Shown in pieces: positions 4,308-64,000 of a stretch of 64,000 bases of DNA. How positions within the stretch are numbered: the stretch's first letter is position 1; each line of letters starts with the position of its first letter. Below the pieces are notes generated by a model that did not search any database, was not told where the DNA came from, and saw nothing but the letters and a program-made list of their open reading frames with translations. The DNA comes from Eutreptiella sp. 'Long Island Sound 2002' (Eukaryota; Euglenozoa; Euglenophyceae; Eutreptiales; Eutreptiaceae). The stretch covers positions 155,576,352 through 155,640,351 of the forward strand of contig OZ038381.1 of the NCBI GenBank assembly GCA_964036045.1. The letters are read 5' to 3'. Position numbers and translations under genes: made by a program.

Positions 4308-4309
4308 TA

Positions 4310-6430
4310 AAGAAGGTCCCTACCAGGACCGGCCCCCGCTGTGCCCCTTCCGCCTGTAATCCCCGCTGACTTGCTCCGGATCAATGCTTGCATTTATCAA
4401 AATCCAGGGTCCAAAACCAAAAATATAGAAAATAGAAAATACAATCCTCCTTCAACCCTGAATGGCAACCAGATCCCACAAGTATGGCAATAACCCAATT
4501 CACAATCCAAATCAGGCTGCGGGCTTTCGTTCAGCACACCGGTATTCCCACGGTGGCGGGCATGTACAAGAATTGCACCAAGGAAGAAAGCCCTGAAATT
4601 GGCATATGAACACAAATAAAGCAAAGTTGGGGCACGAGGTAAACATACCCATTCACAGCCATAAACCCCTCATTCCCTGGACTCAAGACCTTCCCTTGAC
4701 TCACCAACATGTTGCCCTGAACCAGGTCAAATGAGATGGCTGAATGCCATGTGTCACAAGTCACTACATAAACCCCAAAAATGTGTTCACTCCCAAGCCT
4801 CTAAATCCTAGCCCAATAGGGGAGGTGGCGTGTCATGGCCTAGAGTGGCACTCAGGACCATGCCCTACCCTGACATAACCTTGGTTGGACTTGGAGTCGA
4901 ATGGGCTTGGAGAATTGACCTATGAGTTTGAACTCATAACATGCCAAAAAACTGCCAATTCACACCATATTGGCCGTATATCAAAAATATGCTCAAAATT
5001 GAAGTTACTACTTATCCGAAGGCTCAAAGCATGCATGGAATCGAAGTCTAGTATTCATGGAGGATAGAGACCAAAGGCCAATGCCCATGTACATCCCCAC
5101 TTTACCCTTGAAACCCCTTCGGATATGGGCGCCACGCACTGCCCAAGTCAGCCCATGATCTTGAGACCAATTCTTATATTCCTTCGTGCGCCAAGCCAAA
5201 TGGAGTACACGATCCGGCATATGGTGGTGTTCAACTCCGAAGCATATGCCAACATATGAAGAACATACCATGGTTCGACTCTCCATAGGCTTCTTGCTGT
5301 TAGCTGACCAGGTGAGTACATAAAACGCAAAAATGAGCAAAAATTGAGGTCAAAAACATGAAAATATGACCAAATACAAAGTTGTCATGATAGTATATCT
5401 CTATGCTCACCCATGATATCCGCTCATGGTTCAACACACAAATGATTGGAACCATATGCGAACGATTCCCCCACTTGGATCCCCAATCGGGAGCATGGAG
5501 ATACCTTCGCCACTAATATCTACATGCCCCATGAAAATGGGAGTGCACCCATGGATCTCTTTGTCAAACATACCATGAGCAATACATACGCGGTAGACTT
5601 GGTCTAGCGCTTTGAATTCCACAATTGGGACATGGGCAAAGCCCTTGTCACGTACGGCTCCCCATCTCTTCGGCCACACGAAGATATATAACATGGGCGT
5701 GAGCATATCAAACATATATCATGCATATAACAAATACCCTCAAAATATGGCTCCCACCATGATATGCCATGTCCCTCCATTGACATAACTTCACGTTAAA
5801 AATACGTAGGAACCCAAGGAAAGTTGCTATGCAACCCCAACACTCATGCGGCACACTCGAAATTCGCATTAAAATATTCGGTTGCACGGTCCAAGAGTTA
5901 TATATCACTTTATACCCTCTTGACCCTTTTCCCTTGCTACACCGGGCATGTGTGCGCACCAAAGGCGTTTGATGCTTCCTAAATTAAGTTGAGACCAAGG
6001 CAGTACCAACCCAACCTTCCTTATTCTCATTCCTCACACTCGCGCGTAGATATGGCTCTTCAAAGTGATCCCACGATTCGATTTTGTTTCCCTTATATCT
6101 CCAAGTCAAATGGGTGGCAAGTATAAGGGAAACCTGATTCGGGCATAGGGGAAGGAGTATGACCACTCGAAGAAGTCCAAATCAAGTGCGGCGATGTCGA
6201 AGTCGAAAATCCGTTTTCGACATCACGAAAAATTCCGATTAAATTTTCGAGTGCTTATTTAGAAAATTGCGGAAGCAACGAACCCTTTACAGATGAAATC
6301 TGACCCTTCAGAAACGTTTCCGCCAAAATATCTGGAAATAACAGTTAACCAATCGGTCAACGCAAAATCGCGAGCCAACTGACAGTCGCCGATACATTGA
6401 CTATCAGAACAAAAGGCTGAAAAATTACGG
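4310..6430. other. Non-coding, LTR-like stretch upstream of the gag gene
   Basis: About 2.1 kb, AT-richer than the gag gene, with no frame that looks coding. By position it should hold the 5' LTR of the minus-strand element. I could not define its ends because no second LTR copy is in the window. Confidence 0.3.
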
Positions 6431-18406: not shown

Positions 18407-18504
18407 CGGCACATCGCTTGAGCAACAAGACCCATGTGAGGTCCACTCTTCTCTGCCCTCGTGTAACTTCGGTACGATTTTCTTTGCCAGCGGTTGGCGG
18501 TTAC
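18407..18504 (+). repeat. DIRS left inverted terminal repeat
   Basis: It pairs with the reverse complement of 22747-22845 at about 85% identity over the 85 bases from GAGCAACAAGAC to GGCGGTTAC. The outer ~20 bases are less similar. It ends ~40 bases before the gag start. Confidence 0.85.
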
Positions 18505-18541
18505 AGTCCCGTAGCTTGGAACTTTGAGTCAAACAATTATT

Positions 18542-19648
18542 ATGGCTACAATTACTATGGAATTCAATCAAATGGACCTACAATCCTTTGGTTCTATACT
18601 TGAAGATTCATCTAGCGGAAAATTTGCCGCCGCCTGGGACCATTTGATTCAACAGCCAAACTCTTGGCTTGAAATTCGAAGTTTGGGTCCTGAACGTTGT
18701 GAAGGTTTATTGAATATTGCTTTGAAATCTTGCATGCCTACTTTGAAGATAAGCCAGATCGCCTTGCTCGTGCACAAACATTCGGGTGTAGCTATGGGTC
18801 ATGTGGACCCCAAGATTTATCGTGATACGTATTTATACGCCTTTTCATTGGTTTGGGAAGTGGGTAGTGTTATTACCCTTAACGAGGTTTTGGCGGCGGC
18901 GGCATTTGGGTTAGCAACACGGGCCACTAACACCAAGGCGGTGACTACTCCTATGGCTACTCCCATGGCGGGCAATTCTAACGATGTTGAAGATGCCGAG
19001 GATGATGTGATCGACCTTCCTGATGATGAATCCTCTATTTCGTTACCACCGTGGTTTGCGGAAGCTTGGAATCGTTCAAGAGATCCCGGTTGTGATCGTT
19101 TGGATATTAGAAAGGTTTTGGAGAATTTACCTTATCTCGAGTAGGTGCCTGGGCACCCACAAGACAACAATCATAACAATGATGGTAAGCAATATTTGGA
19201 TAAGACGGTTAAATCATGGCAACAAAAGCTTTTGCACGGTTTGCGCATTATTGGCAACATTTCCGTTGTTGATTCTGATACCCCCGATACATATGAACGC
19301 TTGTTGCAAGCACTCCATTTGCTTTCCGACCTTAAACAATCCATTTGTGATTCTAGAAAATCTTCCAGCATCAAAGGCTTGGTTGCACATTCTAACCAAT
19401 TGTTCAATAAGGAAGAGCTTGCTAATGCCAGTTTGAGTGCGAATATTAACTGTTTGGGTCGTTCATACCATCCAAAGGGTGGCAAGGGGGGAAAGGGAGG
19501 TCGAGGTTACTCCAATTGGGGTTCCAATTTTCGAAGTTTTGGTAAAGGTAAGTCCTTCGGTCGTGGCTACAATTCCTACTCTCGATATTCCCAACCTTCC
19601 TCTTCCACCTCCGCCCCCCAAGGACCTCGTGGACAAGGGCCTCAATGA
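18542..19648 (+). pseudogene. DIRS Gag, interrupted by one in-frame UAG
   Basis: From ATG 18542 the frame runs 200 codons to a UAG at 19142-19144, then continues unbroken in the same frame for another 167 codons. The second part has a helical core (KTVKSWQQKLLHGLRII, TYERLLQALHLLSDLKQS) and a Gly/Arg/Lys/Ser-rich nucleic-acid-binding tail (GGKGGKGGRGYSNWG). A basic tail in place of a zinc knuckle is usual for DIRS Gag. An acidic stretch (DAEDDVIDLPDDE) precedes the stop. It is most simply one Gag with a nonsense change. Confidence 0.7.
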
Positions 19649-19690
19649 CTCACAACACCCTTTGTACATGAGGCTTCGCAACCGCATTTC

Positions 19691-21342
19691 TTGGTGGGAG
19701 AAATACGCCACACCACAAGTGGTGCATCTTATCACACCTGGTCTCCGGCGTGTTCGATAAAGTCTCTTCCGCGTCCCAGGAAAGTTTTAAACCGTCCATT
19801 TCAGGAAGTGAAAGACGCTCTCGAGATTATGGAAGAGTATTTGAGCGTGCACGCAGTGAGAGAGTTGCATCAACCCTCAAGTCACCTCATTCCATGGTTC
19901 CTTGTTTACAAGCCAAAGCCGCGCTTCATTTCCAATTGTGTGCAAATAAACATTTGCCTACAACCACCGCCTTATTTTTGCCTCCCAAATTGGAATGCCA
20001 TTTTTCCTTATCTGGTGCAAGGCCATTGGGCCATAAAGAGCGATTTAAAACACGCGTACTTTCATTTGGCGTTGTGCCCCGAGCTCCAAAGGCTCTTCAA
20101 TTTTCAAATAGGCAGTCATTTTTTCCAATGCAGAAGCGCTTGTTTCGGTCTTCACTACATTCCGTATTTGTGGACACAGTTAATGAAAACTTTCCTTCGA
20201 AAGTGAGAAAAGTGAGAAAAGCAGGCATTGTTGTTTTTATGTACCTAGACCACATCATTGTCCTAGGGCCTTCAAGAGAAAGGTTGTATGTTCATCGCCC
20301 CACCGTGCTCAGAGATTTGGTCGCCTCAGGTTTGACTATAAACTTCATCAAGTCCCTTCTTTCCCCCACACAACAGTTCGAAGCTTTGGGGTTAGAGGTA
20401 AACCTAAAGGATGGATATTTGATGGTCCCCATGCACAAGCGCAAGGGTTATCGAAAGGAGGCCGGAAAGCTTCTTACCAACGTGCACATGACGCCGCGAA
20501 AAATGGCCGCCATCTTGGGCCGTTTTCGCAGTTTGCTCCCCGCTTTGCCCGCTCTCACAGCCTTCACCGATCTTCTAGTTACTTTCGTGGGAAAACATCG
20601 GATGCTCGGTTGGGACACCGCGTGCCCAATTCCTTTCAATCTAAAGGAACAAGTCAGAAGTATGAAAAACTTTCTTTTAAGTTGGCCAAGTAACCCTTTT
20701 TCAGGCAACGTGCATCAACACACTCGCGCGCTCGGTTCCGATTCAACCTCGTTTGCTTGGGGAGGTCTAGACACACAGTCAAAGGCAGTTGTACACGATT
20801 TTTGGAGACTCGACGAGTCTCATATAAATCTCAAGAAGCTTCAAGCATCCATTCACACAATCATGTCTCTTGCACCGCCAAAGAGCCTCGTCCATTTGGA
20901 CGTCGACAATTCAGTAGCATTCTCCTATCTAACAAAACATGGAGGAAAGATTGGCAAGCTCAACGCCATCCTAAGACCTTTTTTGTTGTGGATGAACCGC
21001 AATCAAGTCACCTTAGTGCCTCGCCTAGTTCCGTCCAAGGACATGTTGGCAGACGGGATCTCCCGGTGGCGCTTCGACCCAGGGGAATACTCCGTCAAGC
21101 TACAGGTGTTTGTCACCCTCATGGGAATTTTTCGTCCTCATTGCACGGCGCACATCGACATGTTCGCGTCGCCGAGCAACGTGCGCCTACCTCTCTTTTG
21201 CGCGTGTTGGCCCCATCACCAAGCGCATCTAGTAGACGCGTTGTCCACAGATTTGACATCTCTCACCCACGTGTACGCACACCCGCCGTGGTCCATTATA
21301 GACAAGTGGTTGCATCGTCTTCGGGTGCACCCAAATCTATAG
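19691..21342 (+). pseudogene. DIRS reverse transcriptase - RNase H - methyltransferase-like ORF
   Basis: RT fingers and palm read in one frame to about 20206 (KPRFISNCVQIN, WAIKSDLKHAYFHLALCPEL). They then continue in the next frame from about 20210 (IVVFMYLDHIIVLGPS). The shift sits in a GTGAGAAAA direct repeat. The catalytic YLDD motif is YLDH, so the second Asp is lost. RNase H follows (ALGSDSTSFAWGG, HINLKKLQASIH, HLDVDNSVAFSYL, PSKDMLADGISRW), then the MT-like segment IDMFASPSNVRLPLF...VYAHPPW. A UAG at 21340-21342 cuts that segment; the same frame goes on with CLTVVPLWASELWWPLL, which belongs to it. Confidence 0.85.
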
Positions 21343-21362
21343 TGCCTCACAGTCGTTCCCTT

Positions 21363-22749
21363 ATGGGCTTCCGAGTTATGGTGGCCCCTGTTAACAGCCT
21401 TGCACGTGCCATCCACTCCAGTGGTGAAGATACGACCGAGGTTCGGCCTCTACGAGAGTGCCTTGGGGACACCTATGAGAAGACCTCGCTGGCCCCTGCT
21501 TTGCATTCTGTTATCCGGGAGTGCTTATACTCCTGGGGTCTTTCCGAGGTTCAAGTTGCTGAGCATTTGAAAACTGTGAGCTGCTCTAGGCGCTATCAAG
21601 CTTCTTTTTCTCTACTGTATGCAATGGGTTTGCGCGATGAGTTGACCATGCAAAGTTCTCCTGATCTATTTGCTGGTTTGCTGCTTGAGCTCAATGGCTA
21701 CTCCGCATCTACGGCGAGGAATGCTTACGGTGCGCTGCTGCTCATTCCCGGGTTCCAAACCCTCAAGTGTCACCCACTTTTGGCGCATGTGCGCAAGCTT
21801 TGGAACAAAATTCCCAAATAGTGTTCCCAAATATGCTCCTTTTTGGGACCCCATGCCTGTATTTTGTGCTTTTCTCAATACTTCTTACGACATGAATGTC
21901 ATCAAAGAGGTGCACATTAAACTCATTCTTCTTTGGCAATTTTTCGGCCTGTTTCATTCATTTGATTTGTCCATGACATTGAGACAAGTTTCATCCGTGG
22001 GAGATCGCCGTTTTGTCGCCGTGCGGCGAAAGAACAAAGACTCTTATCGATGGGAAAAAGTTTTAGTCTTGAATGACTCCTCTTTTTGTCCATGGCATGT
22101 CATTTTAACCTGTGTTGGGCTTACCAAGCATTTGGTTGCCTCAGGTTCTCCTCTCCTTATTACGTTGCATCGCCCTTTCACACCTTTGACTGCAAACACT
22201 ATTGGTAGCCTCACTTCACATGAATTGCGAACCAGGTTTGGTGTGGACACTTCCATTTGGCGACCACATACCACTCGTGGCACATTTGTTGATTTTTATC
22301 GCAAATTGGGTCTTCCAAGCGAGGTGGTCGCGTCTTTGGGACAATGGGAGAACCTAGAGGCTTTCAGCAAGCACTATTTGCGTGTTGGCGCCTCCGGCGC
22401 TGCAAAAGACGCGCTGAACGATTTTGTGCACAAAGCCTCACATGGGTCTTGTTGCTCCAGCGACGTGCCGCAAACTCACCAAGAGCCCGCCACGCAGGTG
22501 AGAAGGGGAGGACGTGGCACGGAGCACGAGCAACAAGACATGGGTGAGCCCGCCCGTCCCATCCCAAGTCATTCGTCCAGCGCATCTAAGAGGCCACGTG
22601 TTGATTTGCTTTCGCCTCCTGCTAAGATACCACGCCTCGATTCTGTCTCTTCACGTGGTCGACCGACCACACGGTTGATATTGGATTCTGACAGTGATTG
22701 TGACTTTGGTAGTGATGGTGGTGGTGGTGATGTTTCAAGCTCCTCGTAG
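21363..22749 (+). pseudogene. DIRS tyrosine recombinase with 13-bp duplication frameshift
   Basis: The recombinase frame starts inside the end of the MT-like segment, in a different frame. An N-terminal helical domain (SVIRECLYSWGLSEVQVAEH, YSASTARNAYGALLLIPGF) runs to 21821. There a tandem duplication (TTCCCAAATA twice, 13 bp apart) shifts the frame; removing one unit would fuse the two parts directly. The catalytic domain follows. An Arg near DLSMTLRQVSSVGDRRF is a candidate first Arg, then PHTTRGTF (HxxR), and Tyr in GQWENLEAFSKHYLR. The tail past 22440 overlaps the ICR and is Ser/Arg-rich. The enzyme would integrate a circular DNA copy without a DDE integrase. Confidence 0.82.
22435..22556 (+). 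repeat. DIRS internal complementary region (ICR)
   Basis: Bases 22435-22470 match the reverse complement of the left outer end (18407-18441). Bases 22471-22556 match the reverse complement of the right outer end (~22805-22892). The two halves meet at GTGCCG|CAAACTC, the predicted circle junction of the DIRS replication model. Confidence 0.85.
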
Positions 22750-22892
22750 CAACCACCAACCGCCGTCAAACAAAAGAGTGCCGAAGTTACACGCCGGCAG
22801 AGAAGAGTGGACCTCACCCGTGTCTTGTTGCTCGTGCTCCGTGCCACTTCCTCCCCTTCTCACCTGCGTGGCAGGCTCCTGGTGAGTTTGCG
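22746..22892 (-). repeat. DIRS right inverted terminal repeat
   Basis: It is the inverse of the left repeat plus an outer extension of ~50 bases that is also represented in the ICR. A longer right terminus is typical of DIRS1-like elements. Confidence 0.85.
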
Positions 22893-45200: not shown

Positions 45201-48200
45201 GTGAAGGACTTCTTCATTCGCCCTGATGATGAGGATGCCCCCGCCCTGATGATGAGGATGATGTTGTCACGTGTGTCGGTAGTTGTATGTGTTGCGTGCA
45301 AGCCACGCCCTTGTCTAAGCTACAGTAGGCGCGACAGCACCCAGGTGAGGTAGCCGGCATCACAGTGAAGCCGTCGTTGAGGTATTTGGGAGTGTTGCTC
45401 GGGAATGTTTCAGACTAGGCCTACGGGCCGGCGATTGCGAAAACAATGGCGACCCTCCCCCTCGGCATGGAAGAAAAGGCTAGCCTTTTGGCATTGTGGG
45501 TGGCGCCAGTTGTGTACCTCACAGCGAGGGCCTACAAGCCCTCCAGCAAAGTTTTGGCACTGTTGAATTTGGTACAGTGCGTCGCGCTCAATCTGAACTC
45601 GTGACATCTTACGATGGGCATCTTGAGTATGCCTAAGAGGGAGGGGGGTCTGGCGCATGCCTCGCTGTCTTCGTATGGGCTGTGGGTCCACTCCCATTCA
45701 TTTGTGACATTGGTCTGCTGCCCGCAGGCGTACCCGGAGTCGCAGGTGGTACCGTTTCGCGGCTGGGCACGGCGGGTGGGCCTAGTTCTCGAGGAGACTA
45801 CCCTGCCGTATGTGCAATTGGCGCCAGTCACCATTAAACGACCGTCCTTTCTTCAGGGCTCTCTGAGGGCGTACTCACAAGTGCGAAGGGGGGGGCGGCA
45901 TCCCCCCCCCCCCCCATCAGCTTTACCCGACATGGGGATACGGCACTCGGTGCTATTCAGGGGGGAGACGGGACTTACGTATGTGTGTCCGAGGTTGGTG
46001 AGAAAGGGGGTTGTGAGGTGGAGGGACCTAGTCGTGTCAGGTATAGTTCAGCTAGAGCACTTGGACGTCATCGCCTATACATTCAAGATGGTATATGACA
46101 TGGGGGTCCAGGAAGTACGGTTGAGGGCGCTTGCCACGGGGGACGGGGATCGAGGGATGGCGCTAGATCAATGGGGGTGGGTGTGGGGAAAACAGCGAAC
46201 GTTGTTATATATGCGTGGGTTGGCGGAGGAACCCCGTCAGCCCTTGGAAGTGTGGCGTGCGTTTGGCCGCCTTTACTTGCCCAAGTGGGACTTGGATTTT
46301 ATCCGACGGGCGCTGTGGAAGAAACTGCCTATTGGTGGCAGAATGGGGCATCGGGTGGGAAGTAAGCTATGCCCTCTTTGTCATAAGGTGGAGGACCACG
46401 GGCACGTGCTTCGGCACTGTCGTTTCACCCCTTTCATTTTTGATACCGTTCGCAAGGCCTTTGGCCTAGTGCGTCAAGACAAGCTGGTTGTAGAGCCTAG
46501 TCGTGTTTTGCTGGAGAACACCACACTGTCCCTGCAGACAAGCCAGGGACTGGTATTGTGGGCAGCTCTCAAAGCGCAGTGGTCGTTGCGCTGCGAAGCA
46601 CGCTTTCAGGGAGCGGTACCCACCCTGGATGACTTTGTGGCGCGGTGGGTGGGGGTATTGGAGGTTTGGCGGGCAGACAAGGACCTATCGCTCTCTAGAG
46701 TGGATTTACAGCATTTGATTGAACAATTATTTTCATGGTTCACGAGGGGGATGTTCATACAAAAGGCCCCGGCCGCCGGGGTCTATCCGGCGAAGCCCAC
46801 GGCTACGCCCCGGGACCTTAAAGAGCAGAAGTGGGGACAGTATAGGGACGCGGTGGTCGAGAAATTGGCGGTGTTGGGGAGAGAGGGGTGGCAGTTGGTA
46901 TACACAAACGGGTCGGCAAAGCAAGTACGCGGTTGGTGGCAGGCGGGGTACGGTGTTTGGTTTGGGGAAGGTTAGGATAGGAACGTAGGGGCGCCAGTGC
47001 CGACGCACGAACGCCAGAGGGTTGGCCGAGGGGAACTACGGGGTGTCCTATATGCACTGGAACGGAGAAGGGGGGGGGAGAGGATGGTGGTGGTCGTGGA
47101 TTCCGAATACGTGTATAAAGGCATAACGGAATGGTCGGTGAAATGGCACCGCCACGGGTGGCAGGTTAAGAATAGGGAGGTGGGGCACAGGGACTTGTGG
47201 GAACAGATTTTTCTGCTACGACGGGAGGCGGGGTCGTTGTTGCAGTTGGTGTGGACGCCTTCCCATATGCAGGTTGTGGGAAATGACAGGGCCGATGCTT
47301 TGGCGGAGGAGGGTAGGCTGCAACATCCACATAATAAAAAACGGAGGTCAGAGGAGCCGAGGCCGCCGCTGTTGTGGGAGGAGGAGGGGCTGCTGCCCAT
47401 GCGATCCGATGCATCGTCCTCTGTCGACCCCTCGTTTCAGCCGGAGCAAGGTCAAGTGTCGGGGGCTCGTTAACGTCGTCAGAGGGGTCAGACACGTCGA
47501 CAGTTTCCTCCACGGCAGACTGGGTGAGTGAGTCCAGTGATGGAGGGTCGGGCTTCAGCACAGACGTCAGCGATCGGCAGCGGGAGCGCAAAAGAGCGAG
47601 GGGAGCAGCATAGCATAGTTGGGCATGCGCAGCTCTTGGATTTCACAGAGGGTGGTTCGAACCCCGGGGAGGGCTGGGAACCGCCGAATGTCCCGCAGCC
47701 CCAAGGGATGTATGTTTTTTTATGGCCGCACGTGGAAGGTGGGGGGCGAGCATACCAGAAAGTGTACGGGGGCCAGGCCCCGCAGTGCGCTCCGTCATCG
47801 TGGCTCGTGGAGGCCACGGCGTCGGCGATCATGAAGATCTACTGCTCTTGTGCGGCCACTGTAGCAACTGACAGCAACGATGCGGACAATGAGGTGTAGG
47901 GGGGTGGGCTGGATGACGGTTATTTAACCACATCGGTGGCGTAGTATACTAGATGTGCACGGGGGTCTCGTCCCGGAGAGCGTAGGATCGATGCCCGGTG
48001 TGTAGATCATGGCGCCGACAGGCATGACACAGCTCTTTTGAGGGGTACACTTTTTCCTGAGCCTGAGTGGCAACAAGACCCAATCCAACAGGGAGGTAGG
48101 GGCAACGCATGGGATGTGCACGCACACGAGAGGGCGGCTTCGCCGCCGTTCTGGACTCATGAGCGCGGCTTTGCCGCGTATGGACGATTTGTGGCCGCGG

Positions 48201-52699: not shown

Positions 52700-55600
52700 G
52701 AAATTACCTCGAAGAGGTTGTTAGATCACGCCCGGACGCGAGCGTCGTATACCCCCCCCTTTTTTGCCGTGGGGCCTGTAAGGCCCGCCGTCACTGTCCG
52801 GCCGCGGGGGAGGGGCCACGCGGCCGCCAGCAATGTTCAGCTGTAAAGCTGACCCCGGTGATTATCTTGCCGGATTGGCCCTCTCGTACAGCTGGCAACG
52901 GACGCGGTTTCCGACGAACCGAAAGCACATTTATGAATGGCAGGTCGGTCCCGACAAAAGTATATATCTAAAAAAAATTTTCGTGGCCGGAATCCGGATT
53001 TCTGGTCTGAAATTGGTGTGCACGCGTGACTAGTGGCAGTCGCCGACATTGCCAATCTTGGTTTGGGCCTGTCCAACTCAGCCCCTAGCTAGAGTGTACG
53101 AAAATTAGATTTGAGATCACCAATATGAATGGTTTTAAAGCCCGAATAATGCTGTCAAATCGCTTTTTCGCAAAGATGCGCGGATCGCTGTTCTGCAACA
53201 CCGATCGTCGATTTGTGTGATGAGAGTGTTAGGCGCCGAGGTTTTGACCTCATATTCGTGTTCGGCATCAAAAACTACCCATATTTAGCTTTTGGTTTAT
53301 CAAAATTCGAGCCGGTAGGCCAAAGATATGACTTTTTCAAGTTTTGATACATTTGGCTCAGGGTGGCCATTTTGGCCTATTTCGTGTTGTAGCATAACCA
53401 CGAGGCTCTAGCAACGAACCAAGTGACATTCTAACTCCATTTGCACCCAAATGATGTGAAAAGCATTAAGGTTGACCCCTCTAGCCTCTTCTTGATGCTT
53501 AGAATGAGGGTACAACGGTTGAAAAAAGTGGTACTCAAGTGAGTTCATATGTCTCCATTGTACAGCTTTGTCAAAGTGCTATATCCCGGCCTAGGGATTG
53601 AACCTTTGTGTACGCTAGTCCTGTATGGGTCCCCTGGGACGGGGTTAAGCAACGGTACGTCCCTATGGCCTCTATAGAGAGCACATCGGGGCGAAAACTG
53701 AAAGATACAAGCTTTGTAAGCCGTGTTTCTAGGTGTCGTCACGACACCAGCGTGCCAAACTCATGGGTCCCCCCCTTGGTGTTGCGGTTGCATCCCTATG
53801 CCTCTGTGGGACCTCAACCAAGTATATTTGAGTAGTTTGGGGGATGGCCACTTGTTTGCCAAGTGTAACCCCAATGGCCCCTAGACATCTCGGGTGGGGG
53901 TTTGGCATTTTTGACAAAAATGGCCATTTTGGGTTCGTGGGTCCATTCGTCGGACGTCGTTCTCCTACCCGACCACGTGCCAACAGGTACACACTTTAAT
54001 GTGGCAGGGTATGCAAAACATACATCTAATTTTACCTAAAAATGACAACCAAAGACGCCATTTTTGCGAGAAATAAGTGTGAGACGGTCTGTGACGGGTC
54101 CTGATATCCTTTTAGGACTCATTCTCATCTTTCAAACGAGCCCAACGTTTTGTTCCAACTCCACGGTATGTTGGAATCACATAGGTTATCGGGCCCTCAA
54201 CCAAGCATATTGGAGTTCTTCGGATTTAGAAGAATGCAAAAGGTGAATTGTTTGCCCGTTGAAGCCCCGTGGGCCCTGGGTTATAGGTGTTGGGGGTTTT
54301 GCAGTTTTGTCAAAAGTGGCAGTTTTCAGTTCATGCCTCCATTTGTCGGAGGTGGTTCTCCAACGTACCGTTGAGTTGGAACGAACCGTTAGGCTCGTTT
54401 GAAAGGTGGAGACATATCCTAAAAGGATATGAGGACCCATCATAGGCGAGCTTGCACCCATTTTCCGTGAAAATCGGGTTTTTAGCCATCAATTTTAGCT
54501 GAAGTGAGACATGCTGAATTCAGAACATGGCGTATTCAAACGTGTACGTGTTGGCACGTACCGAAACTTCTGGTACTTTCGGCGTTTCTAGGCTTGGGGA
54601 GGAGGAGCAAGGGATTGGTACACAACCTTTCCCATATTGTGATCACTTAAAATGGCCATCCAAGCTTGTTTTAGCCCATAGTTATGTAGTGTTTACCCTA
54701 TTTTGGGTGTGTGTTGCTTGGGGTAGAATCTCTACGATGTGCACTTGCCGAAGGCAATAGAATTTTGCAAATCACCTCGCAGAGGTTGTTAGATCAAAGC
54801 CAGGCAGGCGTATAATGCCACATACCCCCCCCATTTTGGGTCTTTTTGGGCATATTCGCGTACCGTACCCCAAGGGGTTGAATTGTTAGTTTAACCCCTT
54901 GTAAAATCATTATTTCGTCCAATGAACACATCCCCCAATTAGTTTTTGGTCCGGACCCCCCCACCCCCCCCCCTTGTAACCCACTTTTTTGGGCTTTTGA
55001 GGGAGGGGGGGGTCAAAAAAATGACCCCCTTTTTTTGGGTCGAAAATCATGAATCTTTTGGTTTCTTTTCGATCTTGAGCCGAAAAGTGTTTCCGGGTCC
55101 CGACTCCATGAGGTGTGTATGGGGCGGAGTGGGACGAGCGCTAATGCGGTTTATGCACTTTTTAGCCATTTTTGCTATGTTGACGGTTTTGGCGACCTCG
55201 GTGACCCCCGTGCTACCCACTCTTGAGGGATGTGGGTGGGGATGTTGTGATAGTATATGCCTTCTAGGATACGATAGGCATTTTTTTTGCAGTCCGTAGG
55301 GTCGAGGGCCGGTCAAAACCCGTGCCAAAGACGCGAAATGGCTATTTCCACCAAAAAATGGCTTACATGAGTGAATGGGCCTGTGCACAACCTGCTGATC
55401 CGGTTTTTCAGCCCGTAGAGATCAAAAATACAAATTTTCGAAACTTATTTTTTTTTTTGATATTGTGATCACCTAAAATGACCATCCAAGGTATGTAAAG
55501 CATGTTTTAGGCGGTATTTCTGTGTTTTTCACCCTATTTTATGGTATTTAGGGCAAGGGGAGGGGGTCTCCAAGGGATTGGTACACAACCTGCTTCGGCA

Positions 55601-55841
55601 GTTTTTTACCTTGGGCGGCTCGAAAATGGCAGTTTCCGAACCCTGTTTTTTTTAATATTGTGATCACCTAAAAGGACCATCCAAGCATGTTTTAGCCCGT
55701 ATTTATGTAGTGTTTACCCTATTTTGGGTGTGTGTTGCTGGGGGTAGGTTCTCTACGATGTGGACTTGCCGAAGCCAATAGAATTTTGCAAATCACCTCG
55801 CAGAGGTTGTTAGATCAAAGCCATGTAGGCGTATATATGGG
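52700..55841. repeat. Satellite-like non-coding repeat region, left of the YR element
   Basis: Diverged copies of a few modules recur. The CCTCGNAGAGGTTGTTAGATCA module is at 52709, 54776 and 55796. A hairpin CAAGGGGTT...AACCCCTTG lies at ~54871. A GTGATCACCTAAAATGACC module occurs at ~55465 and 55655. Similar modules continue to the right of the YR retrotransposon (61347-64000). Nothing coding. Confidence 0.75.
54097..54441. repeat. Long imperfect inverted repeat (~80-bp arms)
   Basis: 54097-54176 (GGGTCCTGATATCCTTTTAG...) and 54363-54441 are inverted copies at roughly 80% identity; weaker pairing extends outward. The spacer is a diverged direct copy of part of 53830-53970. It would form a long RNA hairpin if transcribed. 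Confidence 0.7.
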
Positions 55842-55905
55842 AAAACCGATGTTTTGCCAAAAACATACGTTTTGTTCATAGTGCTTACTGTTTTTCTTGG
55901 CCCCC
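55842..55905 (+). repeat. Split direct repeat A1
   Basis: AAAACCGATGTTTTGCC to CTTGGCCC recurs at 61107-61170 with about one mismatch. It starts at the left junction with the satellite and ends 34 bases before gag. Confidence 0.9.
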
Positions 55906-55938
55906 CCCCGGGTGCGCTTCCATTGGGTGAACACATAA

Positions 55939-56949
55939 ATGTCTGAGACTATGGAACAAGACAAGAACCCGGTGGTGGACAATTCAGGACCCGACCCGGG
56001 GCTGGCCAAGTTCAGGATGTGGGTGCTCGGGCCGTTCGAGACAATCCAGGGTCAACAGGAGTACCAGGAGAGGAGCGGCGAATGGTTGATTGAGGAGCAG
56101 GAGAGAATAGTGGACCTGCAGGTGGGTGCAGATGTGGTGTCCGAGTTCGCGGGGCAGATTGGTGTCGGCCACCTGGACAAGAACACCTTCCTCACAGCGC
56201 TGCGCTGCTATGCGATCCGGAAGGGCCTGGTGCCTGACTACGTGAATAAAAGGTTTGTCCATGATGAGACTCAGGGGACGGGGCAAGGCAATGCGGGAAC
56301 AGAGATCACAAGACCACCATCACCGGCGGTCAGCGGTTTGGCGACGCATGAAGTGGCAGAGCTGGTGCAACTCCTGGCGGCAACGAAACTGGAGAATAAA
56401 AGACTCAGAGCGGCGGCTATACCAAGGCTGACGAAACAAGAACTGGAGCGGATGCTGGCAGAAACACTGCCATACCAATGGATGCAGACCCTGGCGGTTG
56501 GACTGATGACGTACTCCAAGAAAGACCCACAGTGGGACGCCCATGAATTGTCAACAACGATATGGAAGGTCGTGCATGAGGAATTGAGAAACAAAAGGCA
56601 GGGACGCAATTCCCACATGCCAATACCGCAACAAGTGCAAGGTGCAGGAACTCCAGGAACACACACGGCACCGGGGGCGCCGCTGGGCAGAGCGATCAAC
56701 ACTCCAGGAGGACAGCAGATCATGGGGACCCCGGTGGGATGGGGTCAGTGTTTTGTCTGCGGCCAGATTGGGCACTGGGCCAGAAATTGCCCGCAGGCAG
56801 CACTGACAGGCACCCTGAACCAACCGCACGTCCAGGCCAAAATATCGCAGGTGGGGGACCAGACTGTGATGACCAGTAACAAGGGGTGGACCTTCGACCT
56901 GAATGGCCCACCCCCCGCCAACTGCAGGCGCTGTGGGCAGCTCCACTAG
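55939..56949 (+). CDS. Gag of the YR retrotransposon, with CCHC zinc knuckle
   Basis: 336 residues from ATG 55939 in the clear after A1. An N-terminal helical part (ETIQGQQEYQERSGEWLIEE) and a second helical block (~130-220) precede a classical knuckle CFVCGQIGHWARNC at residues ~271-284. The protein ends with a second Cys/His cluster, CRRCGQLH, directly before UAG. Past the UAG the same frame reads EMFPCG, which would supply a last Cys of a knuckle. It then runs 57 codons to a UGA, after which the YR frame follows, still in phase. So either UAG is a nonsense change inside a second knuckle or it is a readthrough stop. The role is the nucleocapsid of the RNA intermediate. Confidence 0.8.
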   Translation: MSETMEQDKNPVVDNSGPDPGLAKFRMWVLGPFETIQGQQEYQERSGEWLIEEQERIVDLQVGADVVSEFAGQIGVGHLDKNTFLTALRCYAIRKGLVPDYVNKRFVHDETQGTGQGNAGTEITRPPSPAVSGLATHEVAELVQLLAATKLENKRLRAAAIPRLTKQELERMLAETLPYQWMQTLAVGLMTYSKKDPQWDAHELSTTIWKVVHEELRNKRQGRNSHMPIPQQVQGAGTPGTHTAPGAPLGRAINTPGGQQIMGTPVGWGQCFVCGQIGHWARNCPQAALTGTLNQPHVQAKISQVGDQTVMTSNKGWTFDLNGPPPANCRRCGQLH

Positions 56950-57156
56950 GAGATGTTCCCGTGTGGGGCACAGGGGAGGGTGTCCCTGTTGCCACAGCCA
57001 GCGACACCGGTCGGACAGGCGGGGGTGGCGGGCGGACAACGGGAGGGCTCGGATGATGCCGTTCTCCGCATGGTACAGGACTTGCTGCAATCGCGGGCAC
57101 TAGACCCAGGACAACAGCAATGACAAGAGCTCAACGGAGTCGGGGCCGGATCGAAG

Positions 57157-59412
57157 GTGGCACTGGGGCCGGACATGGGAGCCACGGTGGCCGAGACCTG
57201 GCAGGCCCACGATGCCGTCATGCACGCCAGGACAGAGGTGTGGGGAACAGTGGGTACGGCGATGGCGATCCGTGGCGTGGAGGCCAGCTCATCAGCGACG
57301 TATATGCAACAGGTACGGATGGCATTGCGAGGGTGTGGCACCGATGAACCACTGGCGGTGGCGATTCAACGGCGGTTCGCAGAACTGGCACTACGAAAGC
57401 GGGGCTACTCGGCGGCAAACAACTTGGTGGCGGGGATACGGATGCTGGAGAAACTCAAACTCATACGGGCTACCGTCACAGACCTACACAGGCTACAACT
57501 CAGAGCAATCGGCAAGATGGCCAAGGCGGAAGACAGGCCACGAGTATGGGTGACAGTGGCCGACTTTCAACCGTTGGCAGAGAGGAGGGTGCACTGGGCC
57601 TGGGCAAGGGTGTTCTTTGCCGTCGGGATGGCATTCACCATCTGCCTCAGGATTTCAGACGTCGCACAACTACGATGGGGCTGGTTGGCACACAAGGGGT
57701 GGTTGGTGTTCTTCGACTACAAAGTGGCCAAGGAGATGTGTGCCCAGCCCATACCACCGTTTTGGGAACGGTGGCGGCATTGGCTCTACACGCACAGGCG
57801 GCCTCACCAGCACGACGAGAACATATTCATCCCGGGAGGACCCGATGCCCTACGGAAGTTACAGACTGAACTGTTCACAGGTACGGAGTGCGGCCTCTCG
57901 GGATGGCACCCGTGGAAACGCATGGGGGCTGCATGCTTCAGGGCGCTGGGAGGATCCCTGCAGGCCTTGGCACTATGGGCCCGCTGGCGGACACCAAGGC
58001 AAGCAGCACGATACGCAGCGCACCCACCGTCACGGAAGATGCCATCCAGGGTCCTCCTTCCATCACCAGTGGGTGAATCAGGGCACTTCACGCGCGACTG
58101 TGAGTGGACTTGGATGCCGGTCAAGGAGCTCTGGCATAGGGATGCATTCGCATGGGATCTTGGGAGAAAACGGAACCAGACCCCCCCTACGGTCCACACG
58201 TTTGCCCGCCCCGCCACTCCTCAGGAGGTGGACAGCGAGTCCGACGACGACGAGGAACTGGACGATCAGGATGGGGAATGCGACCAGGACAATCCAGATC
58301 ATGAAGAACCCCGAAGAGAAGCGGAGAACAGGAGCATGCAGGACGCCGCACAAAAGGAAATGGGACGAGATGCCGAACTTGTGCCTGGTGCAGGACCTGA
58401 GCATGAAGGTGGACCACGGACGGACGAAGGAACGGCAGGACACGGTGCGAGACCCATCGAGATCATCGACGTGGACGAGTTGGAGGACGGCGAAACGAAG
58501 ATGGACGCCGACGGGGACAGTGGAGGAGCGGGCGCAGCGGAAGCCGTCACAGCTCCGGAGGGGGCGGTGGCAAGTGGGGCGGACGCGGACAAGCATGAAC
58601 GGGATGCAGGCGATCAGGCATCAAACGAGGACCGGGCAGGAGGGGACAGACGATGCGGGGATCCAGACGAAGCGCACATGGAGGCTGAGCCATGCCAAGA
58701 AATGGAAGTCAGCGCGGGAGAGTCTGGGGACGACGTCGGCTCCGAAGGCAGCAGCGCAGGGGACGGAGACGAGTCAAGCCCAGGTACGCCGACATGCTCT
58801 ACTGATTGCTCTGAGTCCCGATGGAGATTACATCAAGCCAAGAGGAGAGTATTGGGGAAAAGAACAACACGTGAGTTTGGTGAGGAGGAGCAACGTGGGG
58901 CAAAGCGGGGACGCGGAGAGACTTGCGCGGGAGACCAGCAGCTGGTGGCGATGCCCGACGGGACTGAAGCAGACGGGGCCCCACACTGGGGATACCTGGT
59001 CACGGCGCCTCAGAGGGGCCATAGATTCCAGCTGTGGAAGCCTATGCCTCTGCAATGCGAACGAGAGGAACAAGGACGAGATGGGGGTGGACATGGAGCA
59101 GCTGACGGAGGAAGTGGCGGAGCGTATGGCGCGGCAGTGGAGCAGACCGGGGACGATCAGTGGGCTGTTGCGAGATCTGACAGTCAGGGTGGGTCAACGA
59201 GCCGGGACGGGCCCACAGCAGGAGGAGGCGGAACAGAATTTCACATCGGTGCTGCAGGCACTCCGGGACGACGAGACGGAGCCATGGGACGTATCGCCGA
59301 CAGGGGATGTCAGCCCCAAGGGCAACAAGGATGGCGACCAGAGTCGGGGCCAAGTGTCGGTGGAGACGGCGATCAGAGGCCTTGGAGTAGCTGGCAGAGT
59401 GGACATCCCTGA
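57157..59412 (+). CDS. Tyrosine recombinase ORF with long acidic tail
   Basis: 751 residues if started at 57157; the frame is open from the UGA at 57121-57123. Residues ~1-145 form a helical core-binding domain. The catalytic domain shows CLRISDVAQLRW (first Arg, ~163), a Lys in VFFDYKVAKEM, GWHPWKRMGAACF (~248-260) and RWRTPRQAARYA (Tyr ~285). The usual HxxR reads HPWK, a Lys for the second Arg, with Arg as the next residue. After ~350 comes an acidic, low-complexity tail of ~400 residues rich in Glu, Asp and Gly. It overlaps the start of the RT ORF by ~330 bases in another frame. The enzyme would recombine a circular DNA copy into the genome. Confidence 0.78.
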   Translation: MALGPDMGATVAETWQAHDAVMHARTEVWGTVGTAMAIRGVEASSSATYMQQVRMALRGCGTDEPLAVAIQRRFAELALRKRGYSAANNLVAGIRMLEKLKLIRATVTDLHRLQLRAIGKMAKAEDRPRVWVTVADFQPLAERRVHWAWARVFFAVGMAFTICLRISDVAQLRWGWLAHKGWLVFFDYKVAKEMCAQPIPPFWERWRHWLYTHRRPHQHDENIFIPGGPDALRKLQTELFTGTECGLSGWHPWKRMGAACFRALGGSLQALALWARWRTPRQAARYAAHPPSRKMPSRVLLPSPVGESGHFTRDCEWTWMPVKELWHRDAFAWDLGRKRNQTPPTVHTFARPATPQEVDSESDDDEELDDQDGECDQDNPDHEEPRREAENRSMQDAAQKEMGRDAELVPGAGPEHEGGPRTDEGTAGHGARPIEIIDVDELEDGETKMDADGDSGGAGAAEAVTAPEGAVASGADADKHERDAGDQASNEDRAGGDRRCGDPDEAHMEAEPCQEMEVSAGESGDDVGSEGSSAGDGDESSPGTPTCSTDCSESRWRLHQAKRRVLGKRTTREFGEEEQRGAKRGRGETCAGDQQLVAMPDGTEADGAPHWGYLVTAPQRGHRFQLWKPMPLQCEREEQGRDGGGHGAADGGSGGAYGAAVEQTGDDQWAVARSDSQGGSTSRDGPTAGGGGTEFHIGAAGTPGRRDGAMGRIADRGCQPQGQQGWRPESGPSVGGDGDQRPWSSWQSGHP

Positions 59413-60994
59413 GGAGATGTGGCAAAGGCACAGGCCGTGCAATTGGAGAGAGGCTCATGAGAACGCACCGGTCCAGAAGGCGAGCCGGGACCCGGCCTTG
59501 GCAGCGATGGTCCAGCGCATACACGAGGACGGCATGCTGGACGAGATCACTGACGGGAGGCTGCCGAATGCCAAGGCGTTCACCAAACCGAAGTCCCAGG
59601 AGAAGGGGTCATTAATCATCAACATGGTCCCGTTGAACAAGCGATGCCAGAGGCCAAGTACACGACTGCAACTGCCCACACTCGAGGAACTGGGAGACAC
59701 GTTCCGAGAGGCGGCGGGCAAGGGTCAGGCCATATGGTTTTGCAAATTAGACGTGGCGAACATGTTCTGGCCCTGCTGGATGCCGGAGCAGGAGAGGGGC
59801 ACGATAAGAATCGTGGTGCAGGGCAGGGTGTGGGGTTTCCACAGCCTGCCGTTCGGGTGGACACACAGTCCCCAGATGGCCACAGAATTGCTGAGAATGA
59901 CGCTGGAGAAGTTCCACATGCCGGGGATACGACCGATACAATACGTCGACGACGTGCTGGTGTATGGGTATGACAAGACGGAGGTAGGGGCAGCAGGATT
60001 GCAACTACGGGAGCTGCTGGAGCGTGACGGCTGGATATGCAGCCCCAAGTCCCAGTTGGAGCCCACGAACACAATCGAGTGGATGGGGAAGAGCCTGGAT
60101 GGCAGGCGTTGGACGATCCAGTCTTCAGCGCCGTACATTGCCGGCATGGTGGCCTTGTGGCTGAAGCTGGCGACCAGGGGTTACAGCCAGAAGGACATGA
60201 GACGCATGCTGGGAAAACTGGCGTGGGCAGACAGACCAGCCCGAGAAACAGGGCCACACACGAGTGGGGCCATGGCATGGATGATGTGGGGGCCCCAGAA
60301 TGCGAGGTACACACCGCCGAAGGTGCTAAGGGGACTGGCGGAGGCGCTGGCGTCCGTGATGGGGCCCTGGTCGGCACGAAGAACGACAGCAGCAGACGAC
60401 ATCGACATGTATGTGGATGCAGCAGAATACGGGAACACGTACCTGGTCGGTTTGTGGTCTCAGGAGGCAGGAGCGCGAGTATGGGAGTGCCCTAAGACAG
60501 TGCGGAATCAGCAGGCGGCAGAGCTGCAGGCAGTGGAGCGAGCGGTCAAGATGGCGGCGTACAGGAAACGGCAGCAGGTGCATCTGGGGGCGGACAACCT
60601 CGCGGCCATATGGGCGGCGCTCAAGAGGAAGACAAAGATTCACCACCGAGATCGGGCCACGACGGTAAGGAGGATACAGCAAACGCTACGCTGGTCAGGG
60701 ATCGTAGTTAAATTAAGCTATGTACCGTCCAAATGGAACCCGGCAGACGCCATCTCCAGAATTTTTAACTGGGGGTCAGCCTTCCGGGCGACTGTGGAGG
60801 CCAGGGCATGCGAGCTGGCCCTGCGCACTGTTCTGTACGCACCCTGCTCTGTTATGGGACAGACTTCTTACAGAAGCACGGGGGGGGGGGGTGACAGACC
60901 TATACTATGTCAGGCACTTTCCACAGACAGAGGCACATGGCAGCCTGAAATGCCAGATGAACCACGCTACCCACCACCAGTGTACTGCAGGTAG
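59081..60994 (+). CDS. Reverse transcriptase - RNase H of the YR retrotransposon
   Basis: The frame is open far upstream (from ~57617), but the part before ~59080 is the shadow of the YR gene. I take ATG 59081 (MGVDMEQLTEEV...), giving 637 aa. RT blocks: LIINMVPLNKRCQ, WFCKLDVANMFWPCWM, GFHSLPFGWTHSPQMA, and the intact catalytic IQYVDDVLVYG (YVDD at residues 288-291). RNase H keeps its acidic set: DIDMYVDAAEYGN, QQAAELQAVERA, HLGADNLAAIW and NPADAISRI. No protease, DDE integrase or MT-like domain is present. Translation probably needs a frameshift or re-initiation from the YR frame, which overlaps by ~330 bases. It ends 14 bases before repeat B1. Confidence 0.85.
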   Translation: MGVDMEQLTEEVAERMARQWSRPGTISGLLRDLTVRVGQRAGTGPQQEEAEQNFTSVLQALRDDETEPWDVSPTGDVSPKGNKDGDQSRGQVSVETAIRGLGVAGRVDIPEEMWQRHRPCNWREAHENAPVQKASRDPALAAMVQRIHEDGMLDEITDGRLPNAKAFTKPKSQEKGSLIINMVPLNKRCQRPSTRLQLPTLEELGDTFREAAGKGQAIWFCKLDVANMFWPCWMPEQERGTIRIVVQGRVWGFHSLPFGWTHSPQMATELLRMTLEKFHMPGIRPIQYVDDVLVYGYDKTEVGAAGLQLRELLERDGWICSPKSQLEPTNTIEWMGKSLDGRRWTIQSSAPYIAGMVALWLKLATRGYSQKDMRRMLGKLAWADRPARETGPHTSGAMAWMMWGPQNARYTPPKVLRGLAEALASVMGPWSARRTTAADDIDMYVDAAEYGNTYLVGLWSQEAGARVWECPKTVRNQQAAELQAVERAVKMAAYRKRQQVHLGADNLAAIWAALKRKTKIHHRDRATTVRRIQQTLRWSGIVVKLSYVPSKWNPADAISRIFNWGSAFRATVEARACELALRTVLYAPCSVMGQTSYRSTGGGGDRPILCQALSTDRGTWQPEMPDEPRYPPPVYCR

Positions 60995-61007
60995 CGAGGT
61001 GATGGTT

Positions 61008-61110
61008 GCATGGGAAGAGCTGTACATGGACTGTCCGGAGATGTTTGACAGTACGAGACAGAATGCGAATTGACTGACGTGCAGGGCAGGTGAGGGAAGC
61101 AATCACAAAA
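61008..61110 (+). repeat. Split direct repeat B1
   Basis: 103 bases from GCATGGGAAGAGCTGTACAT to AATCACAAAA, identical to B2 at 61244-61346. Confidence 0.92.
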
Positions 61111-61170
61111 CCGATGTTTTGCCAAAAACATACGTTTTGTTCATACTGCTTACTGTTTTTCTTGGCCCAC
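61107..61170 (+). repeat. Split direct repeat A2
   Basis: It repeats A1 and overlaps the last A's of B1, so B1-A2 reproduces the junction expected in a circular intermediate. Confidence 0.9.
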
Positions 61171-61243
61171 CCACCCACCCATTGGAGCGGGTCAGGTGTC
61201 TACATTTAGCCGCCACCATACGGCAGTGCAGCCCATCTGTACA

Positions 61244-61346
61244 GCATGGGAAGAGCTGTACATGGACTGTCCGGAGATGTTTGACAGTACGAGACAGAAT
61301 GCGAATTGACTGACGTGCAGGGCAGGTGAGGGAAGCAATCACAAAA
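61244..61346 (+). repeat. Split direct repeat B2 (right end of the element)
   Basis: Identical copy of B1; ends at the junction with satellite sequence CGCCACATACCCC. Confidence 0.92.
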
Positions 61347-64000
61347 CGCCACATACCCCCCCTATTTTGGGTCTTTTTGGGCATATTCGTTACCCTACCC
61401 CAAGGGGTTGAATTGTTAGTTTAACCCCTTGTAATGAACACATCCCCCAATGAGTTTTTGGTCCGGACCCCCCCCCCCCCCCAGACCCCCCCCACTTGAC
61501 ATGCTTTTTTTGGGGGCTTTTGAAGGGGGGTGAAAAATGTCGAAAAAATGACCCCCCCCCTTTTTTTGGGTCGAAAATCATGAATCTTTTCCTTTTTTCG
61601 ACCCCGAAAAAGTGTTTCCAGGTCCCGACTCCATGGGGTTTGTATGGGGTGGAGTGGGACGAGCGCTTTGACTGCAGTTCAAGCACTTTGCAGCCTTTTT
61701 TACTATGTTGGCGGTTTTGGCAACCTTAGTGACCCCGTGGTACCCACTTTGAGGGGTGTGAGTGGGGATGTTCTGACAGTATATGCCTACTAGGATACGA
61801 AAGGACATTTTTTGCAGTCTATAGCCTTGCCGAGGGCAGGTCCAAACCCATGCCAAAGACGCGAAATGAATGTTCCCACCAATAATTGCATGAGTGAATG
61901 GGCCTGTGCACAACCCGCTTATCTAGTTTTTCATCTTGGGCAGCTCAAAAATCGAAGTTTCCAAAACTTATTTTTTTGACATTGTGATCACCTAAAATAG
62001 CCTGTATTAGCCCGTATTTATCTAGTTTTTCCCCTATTTTGCATTTTGGTTCTTTGGAGTAGATTCTTTGCCCGGTGGACTTGCCGAAGGCAATAGAATC
62101 ACCTCACAAAGGTTGTTAGATCAAAGCTAGGCAGGCGTGTATATAGGGGACAACGCCACATACCCCCCCATTTTGGGCCCTTTTGGGCCTATTGGCGTAC
62201 CCTACCTTGAGGGGTTGAATTGTTAGTTTAACCCCTTGTAAAATCATTATTTTGTCCAATGAACGCATCCCCCGATGAGTTTTTGGTCCGGACCCCCCCC
62301 CTCCAGACCCCCCTCACTTGAAAAGCACCTTTTTGAGGTTTTGAGGGACGTGGGGGGTGGGGGGGGGGGTAGGGGGATGGGGGGGTGGGGGGGAGGGTCA
62401 AAAATTAGTCCCCCCCTTTTTTTTTGTGGGTCGAAAATCATGAATCTTTTGGTTTTTTTTGATTGACCCAAAAAAGTGTTTCCGGATCCTGACTCCATGG
62501 GGTTTGTATGGGGCGGAGTGGGAAAAGCGTAGTTTAAGATGTTTTCAGCCATTCTTGCTATGTTGATGGTTTTGGCGACCTTGGTGACCCTGTGCTACCC
62601 ACTCTTGAGGAGTGTGAGTGGGGATGTTGTGACATTATATGCCTACTAGGATACGAAAGGACGTTTTTTGCAGTCTGTAGCCTTGCCCAGGGCTGGTCAA
62701 AGCCCATGCCAAAGACACGAAATGACTATTTCCACCAAAAAATGGCTTACATGAGTGAATGGGCCGGCCCACGACCTGCTTGTTTTCCACCCTATTTGGG
62801 TGTTCGGCGCGCGGGGGGGGGCGGGGGGGGGGGGGGGGGGGCTGGTCTCCTAAGGGATTGGAACACAACCTGCTAATGCAGCTTTTGAGCCTGCGCAGCT
62901 CAAAAATCAGAGTTTTTGAAACTTATTTTTACCGTGATCGCCTAAAATGACCATCCAAGGTATGTAAAGCATGTTTTAGGCCGTATTTATGTGTTTTTCA
63001 CCTTATCTGGGTATTGGGTGTGTGGGGGTGGGGGGGTGTTCAAACGGGATGGGTACACAACCTGCTAGTGCAGTTTTTCACCTTGGGCATCTCAAAAATG
63101 GAAGTTTTTGAAACTTATTTTTTTGATGCTGTGATCACCTAAAATGACCATCCACGGTACGTAAAGCATGTTTTAGGCCTTATTTATGTGTTTTTCACTT
63201 TATCTGAGTATTGGGACGGGATTGGTGCACAACCTACTTATGCAGTTTTTCACCCTGGGTAGCTCAAAAATCGAAGTTTTCAAAACTTATTTTTTGACAC
63301 TTTGATCACCTAAAATGACCATCCAAGGTATGTAAAGCATGTTTTGTGCCGTATTTATGTGTTTTTCCCTTTATTTGGGTATTGGGTGCGGGGGGGGGGG
63401 GGCAAGGGATTGGTGCACACCACCTGCCTATGCAGTTTTTCACCCAGGCGGCTCAAAAATCGAAGTTTTCAAAACTTATTTTTAATCACCTAAAATGACC
63501 ATCCAAGATATTTAGAGCATGTTTTAGGCCGTGTTTATGTGTTTTTCACCCTATTTGGGTATTAGGTGCGGGGGGCGGGGGGCGTTCCAAACGGGATTGG
63601 TACACAACCTACTTATGCACTTTTTCCAATCTATCCAGCTCAAAAATCAAAGTTTCCGAAACTTATTTTTTTGACATTGTGATCACCTAAAATGACCATC
63701 CAAGATATGTAAAGCATGTTTTAGGCCATATTTATCTAGTTTTTCCCCTATTTTGGGTGTGTGTTGCTTGGGGTAGATTCTCTGCGAGGTGGACTTGCCG
63801 CAGGCAATAGAATTTTTTTTTGATATTGTGACCACTCACAATGTTGATATATGCTATGTAAAGCACGTTTTAGACCCTCTTTGTGTGTTTTTCACCCTAT
63901 TGGGGTGTTGGGGGGGGGGTCCCAAGGGGGTTGGGGTACAACCTACTTATGCAGCTTTCCAGCCTCGGCAGCTCAAAAATGGAAATTTCGGAAACAGATT
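61347..64000. repeat. Satellite-like repeat region, right of the YR element
   Basis: It continues the array seen at 54.8-55.8 kb. Hairpin modules lie at ~61400 and ~62203. The GTGATCACCTAAAATGACC module recurs at ~61985, 62933, 63130, 63303, 63486 and 63680. Spacing in the last part is 172-198 bp, a diverged tandem repeat. Between them lie G/C runs and TTATGCAGTTTTTCACC phrases. No gene. Confidence 0.8.

Follow-up and report, generated by a model that had tools for sequence, protein, structure and literature searches.

At positions 55842-61346 of a 64,000-nucleotide (nt) stretch of DNA (here, the window) lies an element with the layout A1-gag-YR-RT/RNase H-B1-A2-B2, in which a tyrosine recombinase (YR) gene precedes the frame for reverse transcriptase (RT) and ribonuclease H (RNase H), and A and B are paired repeats. 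This is very likely a member of a large family of YR retrotransposons that has been active recently, resides in a euglenid genome and has the architecture of the kinetoplastid VIPER/TATE group. Its anatomy, the conserved gene order, an A-rich core at both ends and reading frames under constraint are directly established. An ancestor common to this family and VIPER, which we compared by published description, is likely. The gene order itself is not new, since a counterpart has already been described in VIPER/TATE; what is new, within the scope that we searched, is the lineage of the host, how large the family is, and the near absence of stop codons, in five elements, from the +1 frame that overlies the YR gene.

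All features of the element lie on the forward (+) strand. Its left end is the A1 terminal direct repeat (55842-55907), where the letters before CCGATG are the common A-rich core. The gag open reading frame (ORF) follows (55939-57123; 394 codons in the family, with a TGA at 57121-57123) and is succeeded by the YR ORF (57124-59412; 762 codons plus stop). The RT frame (57104-60994), which is +1 to gag and YR, overlaps the entire YR ORF and contains the RT region with its YVDD motif (59411-60390), inside which the Pfam RVT_1 matches fall, and the RNase H domain (60398-60772). The internal direct repeats B1 (61008-61111) and A2 (61107-61172) come next, and the B2 terminal direct repeat (61244-61347) forms the right end. 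The B1-A2 join reads CACAAAACCGATG, presumably a copy of the circle junction. The repeats are split and direct, and inverted terminal repeats of the DIRS1 type were not found; Pfam scans of the element and its divergent relatives gave no match to a methyltransferase domain. A first-pass annotation of this DNA had proposed both the gag-YR-RT/RNase H order and the split direct repeats A1-B1-A2-B2. The order is borne out by the ORFs and domains and is kept in four divergent elements, and the repeats are present in the window and complete in 21 of the 25 copies described below. That annotation also named VIPER as the known case of YR before RT, in agreement with the published account (PMC6681497).

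The lineage of the host bears directly on this comparison. Paraflagellar rod protein is a marker of Euglenozoa, and its Pfam family, PF05149, has 39 matches in the host genome (best E = 1.2e-105) and none in 14 control genomes. Four of the 39 are full length (E = 1e-105 to 6e-105), and the host is therefore euglenozoan, very probably a euglenid. The green-lineage host supposed by the first-pass annotation is ruled out by these genes. A euglenozoan host changes what the annotated element means, because VIPER and TATE also occur in Euglenozoa, with the same order and repeats.

We searched the 2.28-Gb assembly at the DNA level, scoring 25 of 376 candidates; such counts are lower bounds. The first-pass annotation had held that further copies with the same order and with B1-A2 junctions should be sought, and they were found: the 25 scored copies, window included, are all 96-100% identical, and 21 carry the A and B repeats in full. 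As far as the sequence was read, A1 is missing from L023 and B2 from L024 and L025, and A1 is the sole repeat in L027. Because L006-L008 have common flanks and represent one segmental duplication, the 21 complete copies amount to 19 independent insertions. The other 20 complete copies are 96.4-98.9% identical to the window copy, and within the 21, the two B repeats of a copy differ at 0-3 of 100 positions and its two A repeats at 0-3 of 55. All three frames are full length in 8 of the 25 copies (Gag, 394; YR, 762; RT frame, 1258 codons), three of these being the segmental duplication, and the RT frame is open over 57104-60877 in 14 of 25. The window copy itself is damaged. Its Gag ends at 336 amino acids (aa) at a private TAG (56947-56949; TGG in 24 of 25 copies), which replaces the Trp codon of the second zinc knuckle, and its RT frame is broken by a TGA at 57551 and continues to the stop at 60992-60994. 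The earlier description of a complete, young element thus holds for the full repeat structure and for the family, which is young, and fails for the window copy, given its private Gag stop codon.

The variable columns among copies point to constraint on the proteins. By codon position 1, 2 and 3, their frequencies are 0.109, 0.066 and 0.185 in Gag and 0.100, 0.093 and 0.224 in RT/RNase H, the third position being highest, and 0.119, 0.056 and 0.145 in the YR domain, where the second is lowest. No such contrast is seen in the stretches that follow the YR domain (0.173, 0.173, 0.192 and 0.138, 0.143, 0.138). The contrast is weaker when the two most divergent copies are removed (RT, 0.073, 0.080, 0.133; YR, 0.092, 0.039, 0.104; Gag, 0.099, 0.061, 0.119). 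As expected, this pattern fits purifying selection that acted before the copies landed.

The same gene order extends well beyond these near-identical copies. A protein search of the genome used P0009, whose RT is 43% identical to that of the window, as query; 95 of 10,549 first-look candidates were scored, and the 96 matches, which are candidates and not confirmed copies, group at 100, 80-91, about 56-69 and 43-47% identity to the query. One copy was taken from each of four places (L031-L034; RT 38-43% identical to the window's), and in all four a two-knuckle Gag precedes the YR, which in turn precedes RT/RNase H. In L032, the A repeats (420-495/5581-5656) and B repeats (5495-5583/5767-5855) are each 100% identical as pairs, and the B-A join shows the AAC overlap again. 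L034 is an interrupted copy in which the Gag knuckles and YR share a single open frame (1266-3062); the main subfamily has one TGA between them. Pairwise identities of YR and RT correlate at 0.97, those of Gag and RT at 0.84 and those of Gag and YR at 0.85 (five elements, ten non-independent pairs), which argues that the genes travelled together. YR before RT is a stable arrangement that is found beyond kinetoplastids.

These data also speak to the possibility, raised with the first-pass annotation, that YR and RT come from two nested elements. The two genes do lie in different frames, as would fit a chimera in which a YR element sits inside or beside an unrelated retrotransposon. However, in all 25 scored copies the match runs through YR and RT as one joined region, the order recurs in the four divergent elements, and the YR and RT identities rise and fall together. 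In addition, the two frames are superimposed on the same DNA, and in a second subfamily P0027, by reading, joins YR to the RT leader. Spanning copies, divergent elements and the identity correlation exclude two nested elements, and we give a chimera next to no probability.

The ends of the copies indicate how the element inserts. Right ends read CACA|AAAC in 20 of the 21 complete copies, and left flanks end in AA before CCGATG in 18 of 21. Exact matches between the flanks of these copies include none of 5 nt or longer, one of 4 nt and eight of 3 nt, the last mostly because of the A-rich core; a target-site duplication of the long terminal repeat (LTR)/DDE-integrase type was not found in the 21. 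Related empty sites align across the join with nothing duplicated (cagAA|CGCAGCG for L006-L008 and ttttAAA|CAATG for L016). Given these flank and empty-site reads, and a core common to the B1-A2 join, the crossover core is likely AAC, with some tolerance. The window copy is inserted in a satellite (left side, 54634-55841) that resumes past 61346; related units lie at 54675-54970 and 62011-62318, and the downstream one (at about 62150) reads ACAACGCC. The satellite (54634-55841 and 61347-63758) is AT-richer; its units measure roughly 0.8-1.0 kb, a 170-200 bp array is nested in it, and the element lies inside this satellite. An empty-site match for L012 is an inverted element end within that copy's own flank: at L012 5781-5955, the right flank contains an inverted left flank and the start of A1, as if two ends stood head to head.

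Insertion at a short common core without target-site duplication is the work of YR elements, not of DDE integrases. We take the middle ORF to encode a YR with high, though not complete, confidence, because a catalytic motif is kept, profile matches exist, albeit weak, and insertion is duplication free at a short core. The YR domain spans about 57448-58110, with an acidic tail behind it, and the putative catalytic residues have their first codon bases at 57649 (R), 57721 (K), 57907 (H), 57919 (R), 57985 (W) and 58012 (Y). R168, K192, H254, W280 and Y289 are invariant in the window and the four divergent elements, whose YRs are 34-40% identical to the window's, and the second catalytic Arg (R258) is present in four of the five. 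The W-to-Y spacing is 9, as in Cre, and the H-to-R spacing is one residue longer than in Cre. In hhalign, the N-terminal part and the first Arg box align weakly with Cre and lambda Int (E = 0.0033; probability, 9.8%), and a PHROG integrase is matched weakly by two of the five members (best E = 0.17). A comparison of the YR profile with the DIRS YR of the window gave nothing meaningful, one with lambda Int gave a probability of 0.5%, and a search of phage records with the YR gave no match.

To assess the overlap of the YR and RT frames, we shuffled the synonymous codons of the YR frame 2000 times and counted stops in the other frames. Over YR in the window, the +1 frame has 1 stop against 15.4 expected; L032 has 0 against 6.4, L033 has 0 against 12.2, and a 335-codon stretch of L031 has 0 against 6.4. 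In each of these four, 0 of 2000 shuffles were as low. In L034 (334 codons), the count is 0 against 3.6 expected, with 15 of 2000 shuffles as low. The +2 frame over YR has no stop deficit in any of the five elements, and gag has none in either frame; as a control, RT/RNase H has a slight deficit in +1 (15 stops against 20.2 expected; 49/2000). The converse also holds downstream of the window's YR domain: there the YR frame stays free of stops when tested against the RT frame (0 observed, 8.1 expected; 0/2000). A second reading frame over the recombinase gene seems to be kept open by selection. Extensive YR/RT overlap is mentioned for YR elements generally in PMC6681497, the available passages of which make no mention of an overlap of the whole YR gene. 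At this length, the dual-frame stretch would offer a clean system in which to study the maintenance of such overlaps.

Gag carries two zinc knuckles, the first a CCHC motif, CFVCGQIGHWARNCP (56746-56796; PF00098, E = 4.4e-7), and the second of the form CxxCGxxHW...C (56923-56964), which is kept in the four divergent elements. In the mechanism that we propose, this two-knuckle Gag would package the RNA, which RT/RNase H would copy into cDNA. The split repeats could then allow completion of the cDNA and its closure into a circle with the B-A junction ...CACAAAACCGATG..., and the YR would recombine this junction with a genomic A-A-C-like triplet. Recombination at such a triplet would give precise entry without duplication of target bases. 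With Gag and YR in one frame, YR may be expressed by read-through or re-initiation past the single TGA (absent from L034), and the RT, in the +1 frame, may be expressed by frameshifting or spliced-leader trans-splicing.

The RNase H offers a further point of comparison. For the isolated segment 60395-60991, PF00336 is the best Pfam family (hepadnaviral polymerase C-terminal domain; E = 4.3e-4, which does not reach the curated cut-off). In VIPER, the RNase H is placed with those of hepadnaviruses (PMC6681497). Structure comparison of RT/RNase H recovered RNase H in general, with no hepadnaviral RNase H among the VIA-align matches listed; this absence is no evidence against VIPER kinship. A BFVD search recovered polymerases of caulimovirids, retroviruses and hepadnaviruses, with those of caulimovirids ranked first.

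Several observations weigh against reading the element as a YR retrotransposon of the VIPER/TATE type. The PF00336 signal is weak, with an E value of 0.026-0.093 in L034 and L032, and is absent in L031 and L033. In L031, B1/B2 and the core are present but no A1 was seen; split direct repeats were sought in L033 and L034 and not found. Among the insertions, 1 of 21 right ends departs from the AAC core (L008, AAAG), and so do 3 of 21 left flanks (L015 and L028 end in a single A after G, and L026 ends in AAAC). For the window copy, alignment of the upstream satellite unit requires a 9-nt gap, and the unit reads AA|TGCC. The YR lacks a match in Pfam, its profiles found no recombinase among PDB sequences, and its structure model (mean pLDDT, 38) is too poor for searching. 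Finally, the second catalytic Arg stands at H+4 and not H+3 and is Lys in L033.

Some of these points would suit an independent origin of the gag-YR-RT order, in a YR retrotransposon clade unrelated to VIPER/TATE. YR elements often show structural homoplasy (PMC4157794), a hepadnavirus-like RNase H signal occurs in some members only, and the YR is too divergent for Pfam. An RT profile search, with 7995 candidates scored, returned 20 proteins, none of them named VIPER or TATE: all were unnamed ENA entries apart from one named fish protein, which carries an LTR-type integrase domain. Yet the order, the repeat layout, the Gag knuckle and the lack of a detected methyltransferase are all as in VIPER, and the host belongs to the kinetoplastids' phylum; an independent origin is possible, though less likely. 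No relative was confirmed among IMG/VR viral contigs, searched with the window RT, the RT profile and the YR profile, or among GTDB genome contigs, where VIPER might have turned up through kinetoplastid contamination. One of the 20 proteins, P0020 (ENA; 815 aa), has a distant RT (28% identity) followed, by eye, by an apparent macro domain.

A likely kinship with VIPER/TATE invites a broader proposal, which we advance tentatively and hold at somewhat short of an even chance: the family is the euglenid branch of an ancient Euglenozoan YR group that predates the euglenid/kinetoplastid split, with VIPER and TATE as kinetoplastid relics, and the YR gene and a forward RT extension of ~760 codons occupy two frames of the same DNA, both under selection. 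A later study omitted VIPER/TATE from its trees because samples were few and mutated (PMC12440569). The many near-identical copies and several subfamilies found here, in a related lineage, supply sequence depth for placing VIPER and TATE. Should the host be a Euglena, insertion could also be followed in a species that grows in culture.

Other mobile sequences share the window. As the first-pass annotation stated, a classical DIRS element lies at 18.4-22.9 kb: this DIRS1-like neighbour (18408-22892) has inverted terminal repeats (18408-18502/22751-22845; 82% complementary) and an internal complementary region. It also gives a weak match to a Dam methyltransferase (E = 0.21). A 1036-aa open frame on the minus strand (1283-4393) resembles, by eye, a Gag-type or other mobile-element protein, and a 456-aa open frame (45605-46975) resembles the end of an RT of the long interspersed nuclear element (LINE) type followed by the start of an RNase H.

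Our literature search, with Repbase and subscription papers outside its scope, found no description of such an element in a euglenid. Titles retrieved for VIPER with green alga included none on such an element, none of the papers listed names VIPER, euglenids and tyrosine recombinases together, and a text retrieved for Euglena, retrotransposon and tyrosine recombinase treats Merlin transposons in Euglena. The repeat table of the E. gracilis genome lists no DIRS or YR class, and 32.7% of that genome is unknown repeats (PMC11252322).

Among known systems, the DIRS1-like neighbour is likewise an RT and YR retroelement of this genome but differs in its inverted terminal repeats and in having YR behind RT. 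Ngaro shares the A1-[ORFs]-B1-A2-B2 layout and the lack of a methyltransferase but is ordered gag, pol, YR (PMC8547959, PMC3783388), whereas here YR precedes RT. PAT, Kangaroo and TOC have split direct repeats, and the Pat1-like Gag has a zinc finger; unlike the present element, in which Pfam found none, they have a methyltransferase domain, and in Kangaroo the YR is inverted, with the internal repeats between methyltransferase and YR (PMC4157794). Could the element then be a PAT, Ngaro or DIRS element whose YR has moved forward? The A1...B1-A2-B2 repeats common to PAT and Ngaro (PMC4157794, PMC8547959) would allow it, and the legend of one DIRS1 figure lists the ORFs as GAG, YR, pol, an order taken from the legend and not from the drawing (PMC3266345). 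Against this, all three groups are described with YR behind RT, DIRS and PAT have the methyltransferase domain, and DIRS1-like elements have inverted repeats, as the neighbour does. We regard a moved YR as unlikely.

The closest resemblance is to VIPER and TATE, which are known from kinetoplastids (Euglenozoa), with YR before RT and split repeats, and for which few hits outside kinetoplastids are reported (PMC6681497). TATE, united with VIPER in one VIPER-like group, has split repeats in L. braziliensis, and its Bodo saltans copies, which carry all three genes in a single ORF, are reminiscent of the Gag-YR fusion of L034; it differs in having no clear CCHC box (PMC6681497). In VIPER of T. cruzi, a Gag bearing a CCHC box is followed by YR and then RT/RNase H; the A1...B1-A2-B2 repeats are arranged as in C. 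fasciculata, A1 standing at the 5' end and the other three at the 3' end (PMC6681497). VIPER lacks a methyltransferase (PMC3266345). The present element differs from VIPER in its very probable euglenid host, its two zinc knuckles, its AAC-like target core and an RT frame open over the whole YR gene, which the available accounts do not report for VIPER. Like VIPER, which has a CCHC box in the Gag-like ORF of several species, it has the order Gag, YR, RT/RNase H, split repeats and no detected methyltransferase; the hepadnavirus affinity of the VIPER RNase H shows up here as a weak signal in some members.

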